This document shows positions 5,536 through 63,175 of a stretch of DNA of 64,000 bases, piece after piece. The stretch's first letter is position 1. The number at the start of each line of letters is the position of its first letter. The DNA is from Immundisolibacterales bacterium (GTDB taxonomy: Bacteria > Pseudomonadota > Gammaproteobacteria > HK1): the NCBI GenBank assembly GCA_026712715.1, contig JAPOPW010000030.1, forward strand, positions 124,001-188,000. Reading direction: 5' to 3'. Position numbers and translations under genes: made by a program. Below the pieces are notes generated by a model. That model saw nothing but the letters and a program-made list of their open reading frames with translations. It made no database searches and was not told the origin of the DNA.

Positions 5536-5622
5536 TGGTGCCGAGGAGAGGATTTGAACCTCCACGGGGTTGCCCCCACTAGCACCTGAAGCTAGCGCGT
5601 CTACCAGTTCCGCCACCTCGGC
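5536..5622 (-). tRNA. tRNA-Leu(CAG)
   Basis: Read on the minus strand, the 87-base sequence begins GCCGAGG and ends with the pairing CCTCGGC, discriminator A and an encoded CCA. The anticodon stem CTAGC/GCTAG encloses loop TTCAGGT, giving anticodon CAG. A long variable arm (GTGGGGGCAACCCCGT) marks a class II leucine tRNA. The T arm carries GTTCAAATC. It lies divergent to rnr, which starts 54 bases away. Confidence 0.97.
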
Positions 5623-12249: not shown

Positions 12250-12326
12250 GCGCCCGTAGCTCAGCTGGATAGAGTACCTGGCTACGAACCAGGCGGTCGG
12301 GAGTTCGAATCTCTCCGGGCGCGCCA
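12250..12326 (+). tRNA. tRNA-Arg(ACG)
   Basis: The 77-base sequence starts GCGCCCG and ends CGGGCGC, discriminator G, CCA. The anticodon stem CCTGG/CCAGG encloses loop CTACGAA with anticodon ACG, read as ICG after editing. The D arm AGCTCAGCTGGATAGAGT and T arm GAGTTCGAATCTC are canonical. Its 3' end is followed at once by an unusually AT-rich stretch. Confidence 0.97.
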
Positions 12327-12866: not shown

Positions 12867-14102
12867 TCACCAGCATCCGCCGTCAGGGGTGAGAGAAGTG
12901 CGCTCGTAACCGCGCCGGCCTTCCCGGAGCCGGATGTCGCAGAGAATGACCGTGCCATCGGAGAAGCCCATCAGAGCGCCCCGATCGTCGGGGGAGAACG
13001 CGACGGCAGTGGGAGGGGCGCGGTACCGCCATTTGCGCAGCGTCCGTCCGGTCCGGGCGTCATGCAGCTCGACTTCGTAGTCGTCGTCTCCGGTCAAGAC
13101 CCATCTGCCGGAATAGGCGACGGCCTTCACCCGGGCACCGGTCTTCCATTCGTGCACCATCCTGCCGGTTGCGATGTCATGCAACACCGCCCTGCGATTC
13201 GCTGCCCCGGTAAGCAACCTTGCGCCGTCCGGGGAGAAAGATGCCGAGGTGACGCCTCCGCCCCCCGACCCGGGATGCTTCCACTGGTGGATGGTCCTTC
13301 CGGTCCTGGCGTTGCCCAGCAATGCCGTGCCGTCAGCGAATCCCGCCAGGATCCACCGTCCGTCCGGGGAGTACGCGACGGACGTCACCGGGGACCCGTG
13401 TCGCCAGTCGTGCCGGATCTGAACCGTCCGGGTATCCACCAACAAGGCGGCGCGCCCGCTCCCCACCAGCGCGAGTCCCGTGTCCCTCGCAAGCGCGACC
13501 GCACCCACCGCGCGCCGATGGCGCCATTCCACCTGCAACCGTCCGGTTGGCGCGTCGCGCAATGCAACCACGCCGTCCCGGCTCGCCGTCAGCACGTGAC
13601 GCCCGTCCGGAGACAGGGCGGCGCTCATCTGCGACCCGTGTTGCCAGGTACCCAGAAGCTCCCCGGTGCGCGCATCGTGAACCGCCACCACGCCACCCCG
13701 GCTCGCGATCAGCACCCATCCGTCGCCGGTCGAAGAGAACGCCACCTCGACCACCGCCGACCCGTTCCGCCAAACGTGAATGGGTGCACCCGGCTTCGCG
13801 GGCTCGGCAATCCGCGCCCGCTCCATGGCCTCGCGAACCCCCGACAGCGAGACACTTCCGACGGCCTGACCGGTGGCCAGCCTGACCGCCAGGTCGCTCG
13901 ATGGGTGCTGATCGACGATCTCGACGAGATTGTCGTGCGCCTCCTTCAGGAACCTGAACTTGCCGGCCGCCGACGGTTCGCGTTCGGACGCCTGAATGAG
14001 GCTCACGGCCTCGACCATGAGCCGATTGGCCCGGGCGGCGTCGTCCGCGAGGACCGGCCAGGCCAACGCGCACAACACCCACGCAAACAGAATGCGATTC
14101 AT
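12867..14102 (-). CDS. secreted WD40-repeat protein
   Basis: This 411-residue protein begins at an ATG behind AGGAG and has a signal peptide (about residues 1-19, cleaved after A-W-P-V-L-A). A helical segment of about 80 residues follows. The rest is a series of WD40-like blades, each with a pattern such as S-P-D-G-R, then L/V-L-T/A-G/A, and H-D-A-R-T-G ending in W-x-H or W-K. I count seven to eight blades between about 105 and 395, enough for one closed propeller. Such propellers are protein-interaction platforms; no enzyme motif is present. The gene is transcribed alone, and repeat copy A starts 14 bases upstream of its ATG. The function is unknown. Confidence 0.8.
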   Translation of the reverse strand: MNRILFAWVLCALAWPVLADDAARANRLMVEAVSLIQASEREPSAAGKFRFLKEAHDNLVEIVDQHPSSDLAVRLATGQAVGSVSLSGVREAMERARIAEPAKPGAPIHVWRNGSAVVEVAFSSTGDGWVLIASRGGVVAVHDARTGELLGTWQHGSQMSAALSPDGRHVLTASRDGVVALRDAPTGRLQVEWRHRRAVGAVALARDTGLALVGSGRAALLVDTRTVQIRHDWRHGSPVTSVAYSPDGRWILAGFADGTALLGNARTGRTIHQWKHPGSGGGGVTSASFSPDGARLLTGAANRRAVLHDIATGRMVHEWKTGARVKAVAYSGRWVLTGDDDYEVELHDARTGRTLRKWRYRAPPTAVAFSPDDRGALMGFSDGTVILCDIRLREGRRGYERTSLTPDGGCW

Positions 14103-14749
14103 CTGGACTCCTGGTTGGGCCCCGATCTCTAACAGACGATTCAGGTTTGCAAAGCGGTTTCAGGAACGAAACGCACGAGGCTGCTGCCAAGAGAAATGCC
14201 TGCATTTCTCCTTGTACGGAGCGGCCGGGTCTCGAACAAGGTTGGGGGGGTCGGACATGTCTCGTCGGTCCGAGGCGCAGCCTCGCCAGGATTCACCCGG
14301 AGCGCCGTGTCTCGGACATCGATCCGGCCCATGATCCGCAGACCATCCAATCCTCCTCGCCTCGACCCGCACCGGCGACCCCGCAGCCGTCACCGAAGGA
14401 GGGGTCGCGACATCCCCCAGCATACTTTGTCCACAACGCAGGTGCGACGGATCGCGCCGGCTCCGGGCGGTGACGGAGATCGACACCGATTCGTCGAGGG
14501 TGAAGCGCGCGCCGCCGTCGAGGGCCAGGTACGGGAGCGCCGCCAATTGAATCGAGCATGTCGACTCGAATTCGCGATCGCTTTGCACAACTTTACTCTG
14601 GCGCACATCTTCCGCAACGCGCGTCGAGGACAGTACGCGTACCGACCGGCACGCTGCACGCGGGGACGTCAGTCGAGGGTTCGGCAAGCCGGTTGGATCG
14701 GATCCGCCAAGGTCCGAAGCAGCCAATCCTGGCGAGGAGCAAGGTCCAA
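14103..14749 (+). other. intergenic region with repeat copy A, no gene
   Basis: These 647 bases separate the WD40 gene from the divergent cytochrome gene. They hold the 173-base repeat at 14117-14289 and otherwise nothing I can assign. Overlapping open frames on both strands are Arg/Pro/Ser-rich and lack family features. Confidence 0.5.
14117..14289 (+). repeat. dispersed intergenic repeat, copy A
   Basis: This stretch matches 28869-29042 along its full length with only scattered differences and few indels, both copies on the plus strand. It starts at GGGCCCCGATCT and ends at GCCTCGCCAG. Two inverted repeats are visible: GAGAAATGC-CT-GCATTTCTC at about 14190-14209 and CGAGGC-GCA-GCCTCG at about 14271-14285. 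Copy A lies just upstream of the WD40 gene start. Structure with two stems suggests a REP/MITE-like element or an RNA-level signal. Confidence 0.8.
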
Positions 14750-15271
14750 ATGACTCGCGCCGACGGGTATTCCGTCCTTTCCATCGTGGTTCACTGGATT
14801 GCCGCGATCCTGGTCGTTGCACTGTTCTTCACTCATGAGGGCGAACGCGGGAGCACTGCCAACCTCGTTCACGTGAGCGGCGGGGCGATCGTGGGGCTGT
14901 TCCTGCTCTGGCGCGTGTGGCACCGGATGCGCAACGGCAGCCCGCAACCCCCGGACCAGGCCGCCGTCTTCAATCTTGCGGCGCGGCTCGTGCACTGGGG
15001 GTTGCTGGTCGCGATCGTCGTGGTGGTGGTCTCCGGTTACCTCCTGCCATGGTCGCTCGGGCGAGAGCTGGACGTGTTCGGTTTCGGCATTCCGTCCCCG
15101 ATGGGAGCGAACCGGGGCGTGCACGAGTTCGTCGAGCGGGTGCACGACGTCTCCGGCCATCTCTTCATTCCGCTCCTCGTCCTGCACGTGCTGGGGGCCG
15201 TCAAGCACGCCCTGTTCGACAGGCGCCGCGCGGGGATTCGCATGTTCAAGCCCGTCGATGGAGGTCGATGA
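14750..15271 (+). CDS. cytochrome b561-family protein
   Basis: This 173-residue integral membrane protein has four hydrophobic helices (about 8-27, 38-55, 75-97 and 130-150). His residues are placed for two b-type hemes: H15 in V-V-H-W-I-A, H39 in L-V-H-V-S-G-G, H77 in L-V-H-W-G-L-L, and H132, H138, H146 near the C-terminus. Proteins of this type pass electrons from quinol to a periplasmic partner or superoxide. The ATG at 14750 follows GGAGC/AAGG and fits the family start; the open frame extends 64 codons upstream without homology. It converges on the iron transporter genes. The partner is unknown; the Tat-exported protein at 19.9 kb is not adjacent. Confidence 0.88.
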   Translation: MTRADGYSVLSIVVHWIAAILVVALFFTHEGERGSTANLVHVSGGAIVGLFLLWRVWHRMRNGSPQPPDQAAVFNLAARLVHWGLLVAIVVVVVSGYLLPWSLGRELDVFGFGIPSPMGANRGVHEFVERVHDVSGHLFIPLLVLHVLGAVKHALFDRRRAGIRMFKPVDGGR

Positions 15272-28375: not shown

Positions 28376-28780
28376 TTACGGAATGACCGCCGTGGCCTCG
28401 ATCTCCACCTTGGCCCGATCCTCGACGAGCGCCGTCACCTGGACCAGGCTCATGGCCGGAAAGTGCCGGCCGATGACTTCGAGATAGGCCGATCCCACCC
28501 TGGTGAGATTCTCGAGGTACTCGCGCTTGTCGGTGACGAACCACGTCAGGCGAACCAGATGCCGGGGTGTAGCCCCGGCTTCGGCGAGGACGGTGGCGAT
28601 GTTGCGCAGGGATTGCTCCACCTGGGCTGCGAAATCGTCTGATTCGATTCGGAGCTCGGCATTCCATCCCACCTGGCCGGCGAGAAAGAGCATCCGGCCC
28701 GGCGCCGCGGCCATCCCGTTGGCGTAGCCCTTCGGCCGGCGCCAGTGCGCGGGGTGAAGCTGCTCGTGAATTTCGGTCAT
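28376..28780 (-). CDS. RidA family enamine/imine deaminase
   Basis: This 134-residue protein starts at an ATG behind AAGGA. RidA trimers hydrolyse reactive enamine and imine intermediates to ketones and ammonia in the cytosol. Seen here are the N-terminal strand region with a Gly-Tyr-Ala-Asn-Gly, L-F-L-A-G-Q-V-G-W-N, Q-V-E-Q-S-L-R-N-I-A-T-V-L-A-E-A-G, and near the end L-V-E-D-R-A-K-V-E-I-E-A-T-A-V. The catalytic-site Arg expected near residue 105 of canonical RidA is replaced in this subgroup pattern, so substrate may differ. It is the last gene after the 2-aminobenzoyl-CoA set, where enamine intermediates arise. Confidence 0.87.
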   Translation of the reverse strand: MTEIHEQLHPAHWRRPKGYANGMAAAPGRMLFLAGQVGWNAELRIESDDFAAQVEQSLRNIATVLAEAGATPRHLVRLTWFVTDKREYLENLTRVGSAYLEVIGRHFPAMSLVQVTALVEDRAKVEIEATAVIP

Positions 28781-28868
28781 GCGAATGTCCTTCTTTCAAG
28801 GGGCGGGACGGCGATCGCCCGAACGACCGGGCAGTGAAGAGCGCGGCGGTCCGCTCCGGACTTCTCGA

Positions 28869-29042
28869 GGGCCCCCGATCTGTACGGATGAGTCAAGTCG
28901 GCAAATCGGTTTCGGGAACGAAACGTCCGAGGCGGCTACCAAGAGAAATGCTTGCCTTTCTCCCGGTACGCAGCGGCCGGGTCTCGAACACCGATGGGTG
29001 GCTTCGAACATGTCTCGTCGGTCCGAGGCGCAGCCTCGCCAG
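28869..29042 (+). repeat. dispersed intergenic repeat, copy B
   Basis: This is the second full copy of the element described at 14117-14289, in the same orientation. It keeps GGTTTC-GGAACGAAACG, the first stem (GAGAAATGC-TT-GCCTTTCTC, one mismatch) and the second stem CGAGGC-GCA-GCCTCG exactly. It fills the gap between ridA and the CoA ligase gene and stops one base before the ligase stop codon. Confidence 0.8.
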
Positions 29043-30668
29043 CTATTCGCCCTTCAGGCGGAAGCGCTGGATCTTGCCGGTCGGGGTCTTGGGCAGGGTG
29101 TCCGTGAAGCGTACCGCACGCGGGTACTTGTAGGGTGCGATGGTCGCCTTGACGTGCGCCTGCAGCCGCTCGGCCAGGGCATCGCCGGCTGCGACTCCGT
29201 CGCGCGGCACCACGTGGGCTACCACGATCCGGCCCCGCTTCTCGTCCGGCGCGCCGACGACCGCGCATTCGGCGACGTCCGGGTGCGCGAGCAGCGCCGA
29301 CTCCACTTCGGGCCCTGCGATGTTGTAGCCGGACGAAACGATCATGTCGTCGACGCGCGCCGCAAAGTGGAACCTTCCCCGCTCGTCGCGACGGAAGGCG
29401 TCCCCGGTGAGGTTCCAGCCCGCGCGAACATAGTCGTCCTGTTGCTCGCCACCGAGATAACGGCAGCCCGTGGGTCCGCGGATCGCAAGTCGCCCGATCT
29501 CGCCATCCGCCAGCTCTTCCCCATCCTCTCCGAGAATTCGCGCCTCGTAGCCCGTCACCGGGGTACCGGTGGAGCCGGCCTCCGCGTCACCGGGGCGGTT
29601 GGAGATGAAGATGTGAAGGAGCTCGGTGGTGCCGATACCGTCCAGGATCGGCTTGCCGGTCCGGGAGGTCCATTCGTCGAACACGGGCGCGGGCAAGGTC
29701 TCCCCCGCGGACACCGCGAGGCGCAGCGACGCGAGATCCGCCCCCCCGTCCAGCGCCTCCAGCATCGCGCGGTACGCCGTGGGCGCGGTGAACACGATGC
29801 TCGCCCGGTGCCGCTCGATGAGCTCGATCATGTTGCCCGGGGTAGCCTCCTCGAGCAGGGCGGCGGTCGCCCCGAATCGCAGCGGAAAGATCGCGAGACC
29901 GCCCAGTCCGAACGTGAACGCGAGGGGTGGCGAACCCACGAAGATGTCGTCCGGTCCGACCCGGAGCACCTCCTTCGCATAGCCGTCGGCAATCGTGAGA
30001 AGATCGCGGTGGAAGTGCATCGTCGCCTTCGGCTCGCCGGTGGTGCCGGAAGTGAACGCGAGGAGGGCGACGTCGTCGCGCCCGGTCGGCACGGAGTCGA
30101 ACCGGACCGGCTTGGTGAGGGCGATCCGGTCGAGCTCCGCGTCGTGGTTCGCGGTGCCGTCGAAGCCGACGACCTGCTCCAGGAATCGGCTTGCCTTGGA
30201 GCAGGCGACGAGCTCGTCCATCATTCGCGTGTCGCAGAGCGCGAGCCGGACCCGCGCCGTCTCGACGATCCTCGCGAGCTCCCCGGCGCGCAGCATCGGC
30301 ATCGTGTTCACGACCACCGCGCCCGCCTTGGTGGCCGCGAGCCAGCAGCCGACCATGGCCGGGTTGTTGGCCGAACGGATCAGCACCCGGTTTCCGGGCT
30401 TCACGCCGAAATCGTCGCGCAGGGCCCGGGCGAGGCGGTTGGTCCAGTCCGTGAGCTCCTTGTAGGTCCGCCGGCGCCCGTGCCCGATGAGGGCAACGTG
30501 GTCGCCGAACCCCTCGTGGACCATCCGGTCCGAGAGCTCGCGCCCGACGTTCAGCCGAGCCGGGTACTCGACAGGAGCGGGTAGAAACGTCGGCCAATTC
30601 GCGGGAGGCGGAAGGTTGTCGCGCGCGAAGGTGTCCATGTGCGCCGACGGTCCGAGCACGTTCGTCAT
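29043..30668 (-). CDS. 2-aminobenzoate-CoA ligase (predicted)
   Basis: This 541-residue acyl-adenylating enzyme makes a CoA thioester from an aromatic acid and ATP. The P loop is F-T-S-G-T-T-G-E-P-K near 210-220, the adenine motif G-I-G-T-T-E-L near 345, the hinge V-S-S-G-Y-N-I-A-G-P-E-V and the final catalytic Lys in L-P-K-T-P-T-G-K-I. The closest resemblance I see is to the benzoate/2-aminobenzoate-CoA ligases, with N-terminal D-N-L-P-P. Its neighbours (2-aminobenzoyl-CoA monooxygenase, SDR, MarR) support 2-aminobenzoate as substrate. It lies 97 bases downstream of the MarR gene on the same strand. Confidence 0.85.
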   Translation of the reverse strand: MTNVLGPSAHMDTFARDNLPPPANWPTFLPAPVEYPARLNVGRELSDRMVHEGFGDHVALIGHGRRRTYKELTDWTNRLARALRDDFGVKPGNRVLIRSANNPAMVGCWLAATKAGAVVVNTMPMLRAGELARIVETARVRLALCDTRMMDELVACSKASRFLEQVVGFDGTANHDAELDRIALTKPVRFDSVPTGRDDVALLAFTSGTTGEPKATMHFHRDLLTIADGYAKEVLRVGPDDIFVGSPPLAFTFGLGGLAIFPLRFGATAALLEEATPGNMIELIERHRASIVFTAPTAYRAMLEALDGGADLASLRLAVSAGETLPAPVFDEWTSRTGKPILDGIGTTELLHIFISNRPGDAEAGSTGTPVTGYEARILGEDGEELADGEIGRLAIRGPTGCRYLGGEQQDDYVRAGWNLTGDAFRRDERGRFHFAARVDDMIVSSGYNIAGPEVESALLAHPDVAECAVVGAPDEKRGRIVVAHVVPRDGVAAGDALAERLQAHVKATIAPYKYPRAVRFTDTLPKTPTGKIQRFRLKGE

Positions 30669-61950: not shown

Positions 61951-62781
61951 TCATTGGGATCCCTCTGTAACGATTCCCATCCGTGCGCAGGCTGCGGGCA
62001 GCAGCTCTTCCGACGGCGCCCGGAGCATCGTGATGCGCGGATGCGGCGGGCGCGCCGCCCCGGGATCGATCGCGAGGACCGGTCGGTCCAGCTCGACAGC
62101 GGCCTGCAAGAAGAGCTCCGTGACGCCGACCGAGAGCGACGTACCGACGAAGAGGAGACAGTCGAGGGTCTGGGCGGCGAGCAGGACCCGGCCCCACTGG
62201 TAGTCCTCGTGCTCGTCGTAGAACTCGTCGAACCAGAGCACGTGCTGGCGCAGCAGGCTCGCGCATGCGGGGCAGCGGGGCAGGTTCTCGGCCACCGGAT
62301 CGGTGAAGAACGCGCTCATGTCGACCTCCGACCGGGCAAGCGACCCGCGGGGGGCGGCGTACTCGCAGCCGTGGCGGGTGCAGCGCGCCCGGTCGGCGCT
62401 TCCGTGCACCTTGACGAGGCGCTCGCTGCCGGCCCGCTCGTGCAGCGGATCGACGTTCTGGGTGACGAGCAGGAAGTGTCCGGATCGGCCGGCGTGCCAG
62501 CGCTCGAGGGCCGCAAGCGCGTGGTGGGCCGGGTTGGGCCGCTTGTCGAGCACCATGTCGAAGCGGCTCGTGTACCAGGACCAGCTTCCCGCCGGATCCG
62601 ACTCGAAGAAGCGGCGCGTCCCGAGCTCGGTCACGTCGTTGTTCCAGATCGCGCCGGGGTCGGTGCCGCGAAAGGTCGGGATCCCGCTCGCGTGGCTCAC
62701 CCCCGCGCCGGTCACTACCACCAACCGGCCATCGCCAATCGACGCGAGTTGCCGCGCGAGCGTGTCCGCAGCGTCATTCAC
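61951..62781 (-). CDS. Sir2-family NAD-dependent protein deacylase
   Basis: GTG 62779-62781 gives 276 residues; no better start was found and the ribosome binding site is weak. The family NAD motif G-A-G-V-S-H-A-S-G-I-P-T-F-R-G is near 25-39, T-Q-N-V-D-P-L-H-E-R-A-G near 105 and the catalytic His in V-K-V-H-G-S. Four Cys (R-C-T-R-H-G-C and C-P-A-C) form the zinc site. Sirtuins remove acetyl or longer acyl groups from lysines with NAD. It is co-directional with dadA. Confidence 0.9.
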   Translation of the reverse strand: MNDAADTLARQLASIGDGRLVVVTGAGVSHASGIPTFRGTDPGAIWNNDVTELGTRRFFESDPAGSWSWYTSRFDMVLDKRPNPAHHALAALERWHAGRSGHFLLVTQNVDPLHERAGSERLVKVHGSADRARCTRHGCEYAAPRGSLARSEVDMSAFFTDPVAENLPRCPACASLLRQHVLWFDEFYDEHEDYQWGRVLLAAQTLDCLLFVGTSLSVGVTELFLQAAVELDRPVLAIDPGAARPPHPRITMLRAPSEELLPAACARMGIVTEGSQ

Positions 62782-62819
62782 GCCAGGTTCCGTGCATCGT
62801 CCGTCCGCGCGGCCGGCAA

Positions 62820-62927
62820 CTACTGCACAGGGGGGCACCAGCGGGGGATTTCGCAGCACTGCGCGGCGCGCTTTGGGGCCGGGCGCACCGGTTCGCTGGT
62901 CTTCGGTCGAAAGGCGAGCGCGGTCAT
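62820..62927 (-). CDS. 35-residue Cys-containing peptide
   Basis: This short frame starts at ATG 62925-62927, four to five bases from AAGGAG, a strong ribosome binding site. The peptide begins M-T-A-L-A-F-R-P and ends A-A-Q-C-C-E-I-P-R-W-C-P-P-V-Q, with all three Cys in the last 11 residues. It lies 38 bases before the Sir2 start. Upstream is a hairpin resembling the end of the dispersed repeat. I do not recognise a family; a metal-binding, redox or peptide-modification precursor role cannot be distinguished. Confidence 0.5.
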   Translation of the reverse strand: MTALAFRPKTSEPVRPAPKRAAQCCEIPRWCPPVQ

Positions 62928-63175
62928 CTCGTTCTCCTTCGGGAAGGGCGGCGCGGCCGCCGCGAGCGGCATGCCGGCTCCGGACCCGATTCTAACGAGG
63001 CTTCGCCTCGGAACGACGAGGCATGTCGAGAGCGCGTGCATGAACGCGCACTCGCGGCACACCGGCGGACAACGCGGGTCCTGCACGAGGGGGGACGAGC
63101 GTCGGTGTAGACTGCGGGCGCGCGGTCGGTTGCGCGGCGGCCCGCCCGCGGGCTTCACACCGGAGGTGTCCCCCC
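62928..63175 (-). other. intergenic region with a repeat-like hairpin
   Basis: The minus strand here has GACATGCCTCGTCGTTCC followed by CGAGGC-GAA-GCCTCG (62996-63010 on the plus strand). The last 35 bases of repeat copies A and B have the same order with few differences. The rest of the repeat is not found here. No gene is seen. Confidence 0.6.
62996..63029 (-). repeat. hairpin-only copy C of the dispersed repeat
   Basis: On the minus strand this is the terminal CATG-CCTCGTCG-stem segment of copies A and B. The stem CGAGGC/GCCTCG is intact with loop GAA instead of GCA. The match stops to the left of GACATG, so only the 3' end of the element is present. Confidence 0.6.

Follow-up and report, generated by a model that had tools for sequence, protein, structure and literature searches.

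Intergenic repeats in a gammaproteobacterial genome are probably MITE-like derivatives of an apparently undescribed insertion sequence family

The window, by which we mean the whole stretch of 64,000 nucleotides that was analysed, is part of a gammaproteobacterial MAG (G000; 5.05 Mb in 82 contigs, estimated to be 97.9 % complete) and carries two complete copies of an intergenic repeat, designated A and B, together with a lone right end. Each complete copy has a conserved left end (LE) and right end (RE), and these are placed among the neighbouring genes as follows.

12867..14102 (-): WD40-repeat protein gene, its start codon adjoining copy A (Pfam)
14103..14106 (+): CTGG, the left flank of copy A and its putative target, consensus CYRG (from the sequence)
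14107..14289 (+): copy A, a complete non-autonomous element of 183 bp that ends in its own CCAG (BLAST; LE/RE extraction)
14107..14154 (+): LE of copy A, conserved in the genome's own copies, in other phyla and at the autonomous gene's 3′ end
14189..14214 (+): optional central palindrome of copy A, AAGAGAAATGC..GCATTTCTCCTTG, found in about 20 of 53 copies
14255..14289 (+): RE of copy A, with the hairpin CGAGGC-GCA-GCCTCG and terminal CCAG (RE pattern; paired changes)
14558..15271 (+): cytochrome b561-like gene on the other side of copy A (Pfam PF01292)
28376..28780 (-): L-PSP/RidA family gene flanking copy B (Pfam PF01042)
28856..28859 (+): CCGG, the left flank tetranucleotide of copy B (flank statistics)
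28860..29042 (+): copy B, a complete element missing at the orthologous spacers of the congeners G001 and G002 (LE/RE extraction; locus comparison)
29008..29042 (+): RE of copy B, hairpin and terminal CCAG (RE pattern)
29043..30668 (-): AMP-binding enzyme gene, its stop codon adjoining copy B (Pfam PF00501)
61951..62859 (-): Sir2 family gene, with the lone RE upstream of it (Pfam PF02146)
62993..63027 (-): lone RE, reading CTAACGAGGCTTCGCCTCGGAACGACGAGGCATG on the + strand, the same form as the gene-upstream end of the autonomous element (RE pattern)

Two tRNA genes are also present in the window, at 5539-5622 (-) and 12250-12323 (+), with about 1.8 kb between the second of them and copy A. 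A search of the window for a transposase remnant found none.

A sequence-only reading of the window had described a two-hairpin repeat of 173 bp, two copies of which match over their whole length, and had placed all copies between genes. End-to-end pairwise alignment of A and B and the window gene annotation confirm both of the latter points, and the repeat itself is real, but its left boundaries had been drawn 10 bp too far in; A corresponds to 14107-14289 and B to 28860-29042, and the unit is 183 bp long, or about 160 bp where the central palindrome is missing. The perfect stem GAGAAATGC/GCATTTCTC noted earlier is indeed present in copy A, although it belongs to this optional module, which is cleanly missing from all but about 20 of the 53 copies, and only the terminal RE hairpin is a constant part of the unit. 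What had been taken for a third, partial copy on the opposite strand is the RE alone, on the minus strand, with coordinates now set at 62993-63027.

The order of parts in each copy is a CYRG left flank, the LE (consensus ACTCCTTGAGGGGCCCCGATCTTTACAGATGAGTCAAGTTTGCAAA), a variable middle and the RE, which reads CATGTCTCGTCGGTCCGAGGCG(C)AGCCTCG and then CTAG or CCAG; both ends are conserved. The two ends have a subterminal inverted motif, GAYGAGNCAWG, in common and are weakly inverted repeats. In the genome's own copies the LE forms no hairpin as clear as that of the RE. In nine family sequences the RE hairpin is 100 % paired, with both-side changes at two pairs, and its covariation score was reached by 2 of 500 shuffles; these paired changes support the view that the folded hairpin is what the family conserves. 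Covariation is about zero across the G000 copies. The middles differ considerably. Copy L013 (G000:C65:7289-7470) has part of the optional 28-bp central palindrome in duplicate, suggesting that the palindrome acts as an independent module, and the G002 copies (L149-L152) carry a palindrome GGGAGCGCGGGC..GCCCGCGCTCCC in place of the window genome's spacer. The copy at G000:C5:12816-13051 (L103 5816-6051) is enlarged by an additional hairpin of about 95 bp inserted internally; 4.2 kb from it, with an FG-GAP/ASPIC-UnbV gene between the two, is another complete copy in inverted orientation. A composite transposon between two inverted copies on contig C5 was considered and rejected, only ordinary genes lying in between.

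The repeat is abundant in the genome as a whole. The RE core CTCGTCGGTCCGAGGCGCAGCCTCG has three sites in the window at up to three mismatches and none in dinucleotide shuffles, BLAST of the whole genome with the two length types of the repeat gives 47 and 44 matches, and the RE pattern finds 63 sites, compared to three for a reversed control pattern. Scripted extraction of LE..RE pairs returned 54 rows, one of them double-counted, leaving 53 complete copies, in addition to lone LEs and lone REs; the flank statistics below use the 54 rows. The median identity of the copies to their own consensus is 86 %. Copy B is missing from the orthologous spacers of the congeners G001 and G002, in which the flanking genes are conserved, and the spacer measures 269 bp in the window genome and about 110 bp in the other two; our preferred interpretation of this difference is that the window lineage gained the copy. 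Tandem copies with one CTAG in common also occur (locus L117). The earlier suggestion that the copies may move as elements is strongly supported by the 53 dispersed copies, the empty copy B sites, the occurrence of tandem and nested arrangements, and the finding of an autonomous parent whose ends match. No copies of the repeat were found in the viral and phage collections searched.

Of the 54 rows, 49 have CYRG as their left flank, and this consensus is the putative target. A check for target-site duplications, proposed with the original description, reveals none: the tetranucleotides on the two sides coincide in 13 of 54 rows where 11.7 are expected (p=0.37), and since this is no more than chance we conclude that the target is not duplicated.

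A candidate autonomous element was found outside the window genus. A scan of 84,980 species genomes with the exact RE pattern yielded 35 stretches, in Chromatiaceae (Thiosymbion, Thiocystis, Thiorhodococcus and Thiohalocapsa), other Gammaproteobacteria, Alphaproteobacteria, Acidobacteriota and a Variovorax plasmid, with an LE usually 50-400 bp from the RE and an unrelated middle. When plasmids were searched with the Thiosymbion tandem repeat, RE matches were obtained in Paraburkholderia and Caballeronia, and here the LE and RE bracket about 1.8 kb containing one ORF of about 500 codons, the stop codon of which touches the LE; the two proteins are 88 % identical. Read in the orientation of the repeat, the order is a target CTAG and then the element itself, with the LE, a gene of about 500-550 codons on the opposite strand, the RE hairpin and YTAG. 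Candidatus Thiosymbion has five essentially identical autonomous copies with a gene of 553 codons, and their comparison gives an exact extent, CTAACGAGGC ... GGAATC, then CTAG; the ends of four are identical and the fifth has one substitution in the common 3′ end. All five have CTAA at one end with no CTAG outside it, and CTAG at the other end only. Three of the five are situated at the CTAG tip of a pre-existing small repeat, one of them (L192) between two tandem repeats, and nine of nine Thiosymbion tandem junctions have one YTAG in common. Insertion 3′ of a fixed tetranucleotide with no target duplication is seen in the five Thiosymbion elements, in the 54 rows of the window genome and at the tandem junctions.

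Relics of the gene with a cognate end extend the association to other lineages. One of these, in G016, belongs to the window genome's own family; another, in Vicinamibacterales (Acidobacteriota), has an LE, AACTTGACTTAACTGTAAAGATCACGCCCGTTCAAGGACTCTAG, that matches that lineage's own repeats; and further examples are found on Variovorax and Bradyrhizobium plasmids. Homologues in Rhodococcus, Mycobacterium and elsewhere are arranged in the same way, with diverged ends. The data show that the small copies and the putative autonomous element have both ends in common, that the elements insert beside a single CTAG (CYRG in the GC-rich G000) with no duplication, and that tandem and nested copies form readily at a neighbour's terminal CTAG.

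The encoded protein, about 500-550 residues long, is a putative transposase. It has no match in Pfam or NCBIfam other than a C-terminal winged-helix/ArsR-type domain in some members, no match to the Pfam Y1 (PF01797), Y2_Tnp or DDE families, and no meaningful match in PHROG or the PDB. Residues F149, D153, N176-G177, Q252, E254, K326, Y328, K330, R336 and E338 (alignment numbering) are invariant, and the protein includes a K-Y-x-K/R-x-E stretch suggestive of Rep_trans initiators; a relationship to these was not supported when the protein was compared with one Rep_trans protein by hhalign. Structure prediction for a single viral-contig fragment gave a mean pLDDT of 30.5, too poor for use.

The transposase was not found in G000, G001 or G002 (a single contig) by single-sequence or profile searches, and the window copies are therefore probably orphans; most likely the 53 copies date from an earlier burst and no longer move, or owe their movement to an enzyme that has since disappeared. 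Homologues occur in three of seven repeat-bearing relatives and two of 48 others (p=0.012), although those of G013 and G015 have a different end hairpin and are not clearly the cognate enzyme. Overall, 7 of 22 repeat-bearing genomes have the transposase, whereas among 398 genomes sampled across the phylum 8 have it (p about 2e-6), the latter figure being somewhat underestimated as the phylum scan scored three candidates per genome. The whole genus (G000, G001 and G002) also lacks Y1/IS200-type transposases.

Several other explanations were considered. The earlier reading had offered RNA signals as an alternative to mobile elements, and a structured or cis-regulatory RNA (a terminator, attenuator or sRNA) spread by duplication would fit the intergenic positions beside gene ends and starts, the hairpin at the RE, and the long hairpin middles of the Chromatiaceae. 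The Candidatus Thiosymbion copies (L068-L100), for instance, have very stable internal hairpins with a mean z of about -6.8. The G000 copies are unlike these, with middles that are not unusually stable and fold no better than shuffles (mean z -0.8), and the notion of a hairpin in every middle was dropped, such hairpins being strong in Chromatiaceae and absent in G000, Vicinamibacteria and Alphaproteobacteria. There is no Rfam match, the covariation term is near zero in the genome's own copies, the ends are accounted for by the autonomous element, and copy B is absent from congeners at intact loci; we regard an RNA origin as very unlikely. A conventional DDE-type MITE, with imperfect terminal inverted repeats of about 40 bp and a 4-bp CTAG target duplication, is suggested by the inverted motif common to the LE and RE and by tips that are often both CTAG. 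The five Thiosymbion elements with CTAG at one end only do not conform to this, the left and right tetranucleotides do not covary, the tips are dissimilar with one being a hairpin, and no DDE Pfam family matches the protein, so that this explanation too appears improbable, if somewhat less so. The copies nevertheless resemble bacterial MITEs in being short and gene-less with the ends of an autonomous IS, while differing from them in the weakness of the inverted repeats and in having no target duplication, either in the G000 flanks or in the Thiosymbion copies.

Repeats of the REP type were compared as well. REPs and REPINs with GTAG tetranucleotides, mobilized by RAYTs (Y1 HUH enzymes of the IS200/IS605 superfamily), are likewise short, dispersed and intergenic, with a hairpin beside a conserved tetranucleotide, ends that face each other as an inverted motif pair, and no target duplication. 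However, the tetranucleotide here is CTAG or CYRG, the gene between the matching ends is an unrelated one, and Y1_Tnp (PF01797) is absent from G000, G001, single-contig G002 and G016, although 35 of 55 relatives have one; the negative searches in the window genus largely refute a RAYT or IS200 origin, which we consider the least probable of these explanations. The repeats might alternatively form a novel group of CGTC-tagged REPs as defined by Di Nocera et al. (2013), unrelated to any transposase. CGTC REPs, which include Neisseria dRS3, have an 8-9 bp stem beginning with AT, a 4-5 nt loop, an adjacent CGTC and a CCA tail, and they are reported to be without a known dedicated transposase (PMC3733652). 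The RE does have CGTC upstream of its hairpin and a CCAG or CTAG tail, in part agreement with the CCA tail. Its GC stem has 5-6 bp and no initial AT, the loop comprises 3 nt, CGTC lies inside the dimer and is separated from the stem by 4 nt, the dimer orientation differs, and a transposase-like gene is found between the ends, all of which make membership of this group about as remote as an RNA origin. The earlier statement that no known REP or MITE family could be recognized is consistent with these comparisons.

The closest parallels in insertion pattern are to be found in the IS200/IS605 elements and their PATE-type non-autonomous copies, which also insert adjacent to a tetranucleotide without target duplication, have a hairpin near the end, include the terminal tetranucleotide in the element, and form tandem copies at it. 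They are unlike the present family in that the LE and RE here are not two copies of one hairpin, and the protein has a C-terminal winged helix and no match to Y1_Tnp or any other catalytic Pfam family. One end of IS91/ISCR elements and Helitrons is a hairpin followed by CTRR-like bases; their ends are dissimilar and they make no target duplication. All of this is true here as well, although the element's protein has no Y2_Tnp match.

Taken together, the repeats are very probably MITE-like non-autonomous derivatives of an apparently undescribed IS family, probably orphaned in this genome; the small copies contain no coding gene and have the ends of the autonomous element. By undescribed we mean that the family is not recognized by Pfam, NCBIfam, PHROG or the PDB and that no description was found in the open-access papers searched. 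In the mechanism we envisage, the encoded transposase would recognize the LE and the RE hairpin, probably in single-stranded form as suggested by the IS200/IS605-like insertion pattern, and would join the element next to the tetranucleotide in the IS200/IS605 manner. The enzyme class is inferred, and with it the single-strand mechanism. A broader and rather doubtful speculation is that the gene defines a novel class of transposase that acts on single strands, has no relation to the Y1/Y2 HUH enzymes and makes REP-like repeats in several phyla, with sister subfamilies providing the missing enzyme of the CGTC REPs.

If the preferred interpretation is right, a REP-like family found across Pseudomonadota and Acidobacteriota would be explained by an autonomous element, the gene of which carries the annotation 'hypothetical protein', and an apparently unrecognized IS family with an unusual insertion chemistry would have been identified. 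The origin of REP-like repeats that have no RAYT is a question left open in PMC3733652, for which a concrete enzyme and its DNA substrates could now be offered, and genome annotators could label such repeats and their parent genes correctly.
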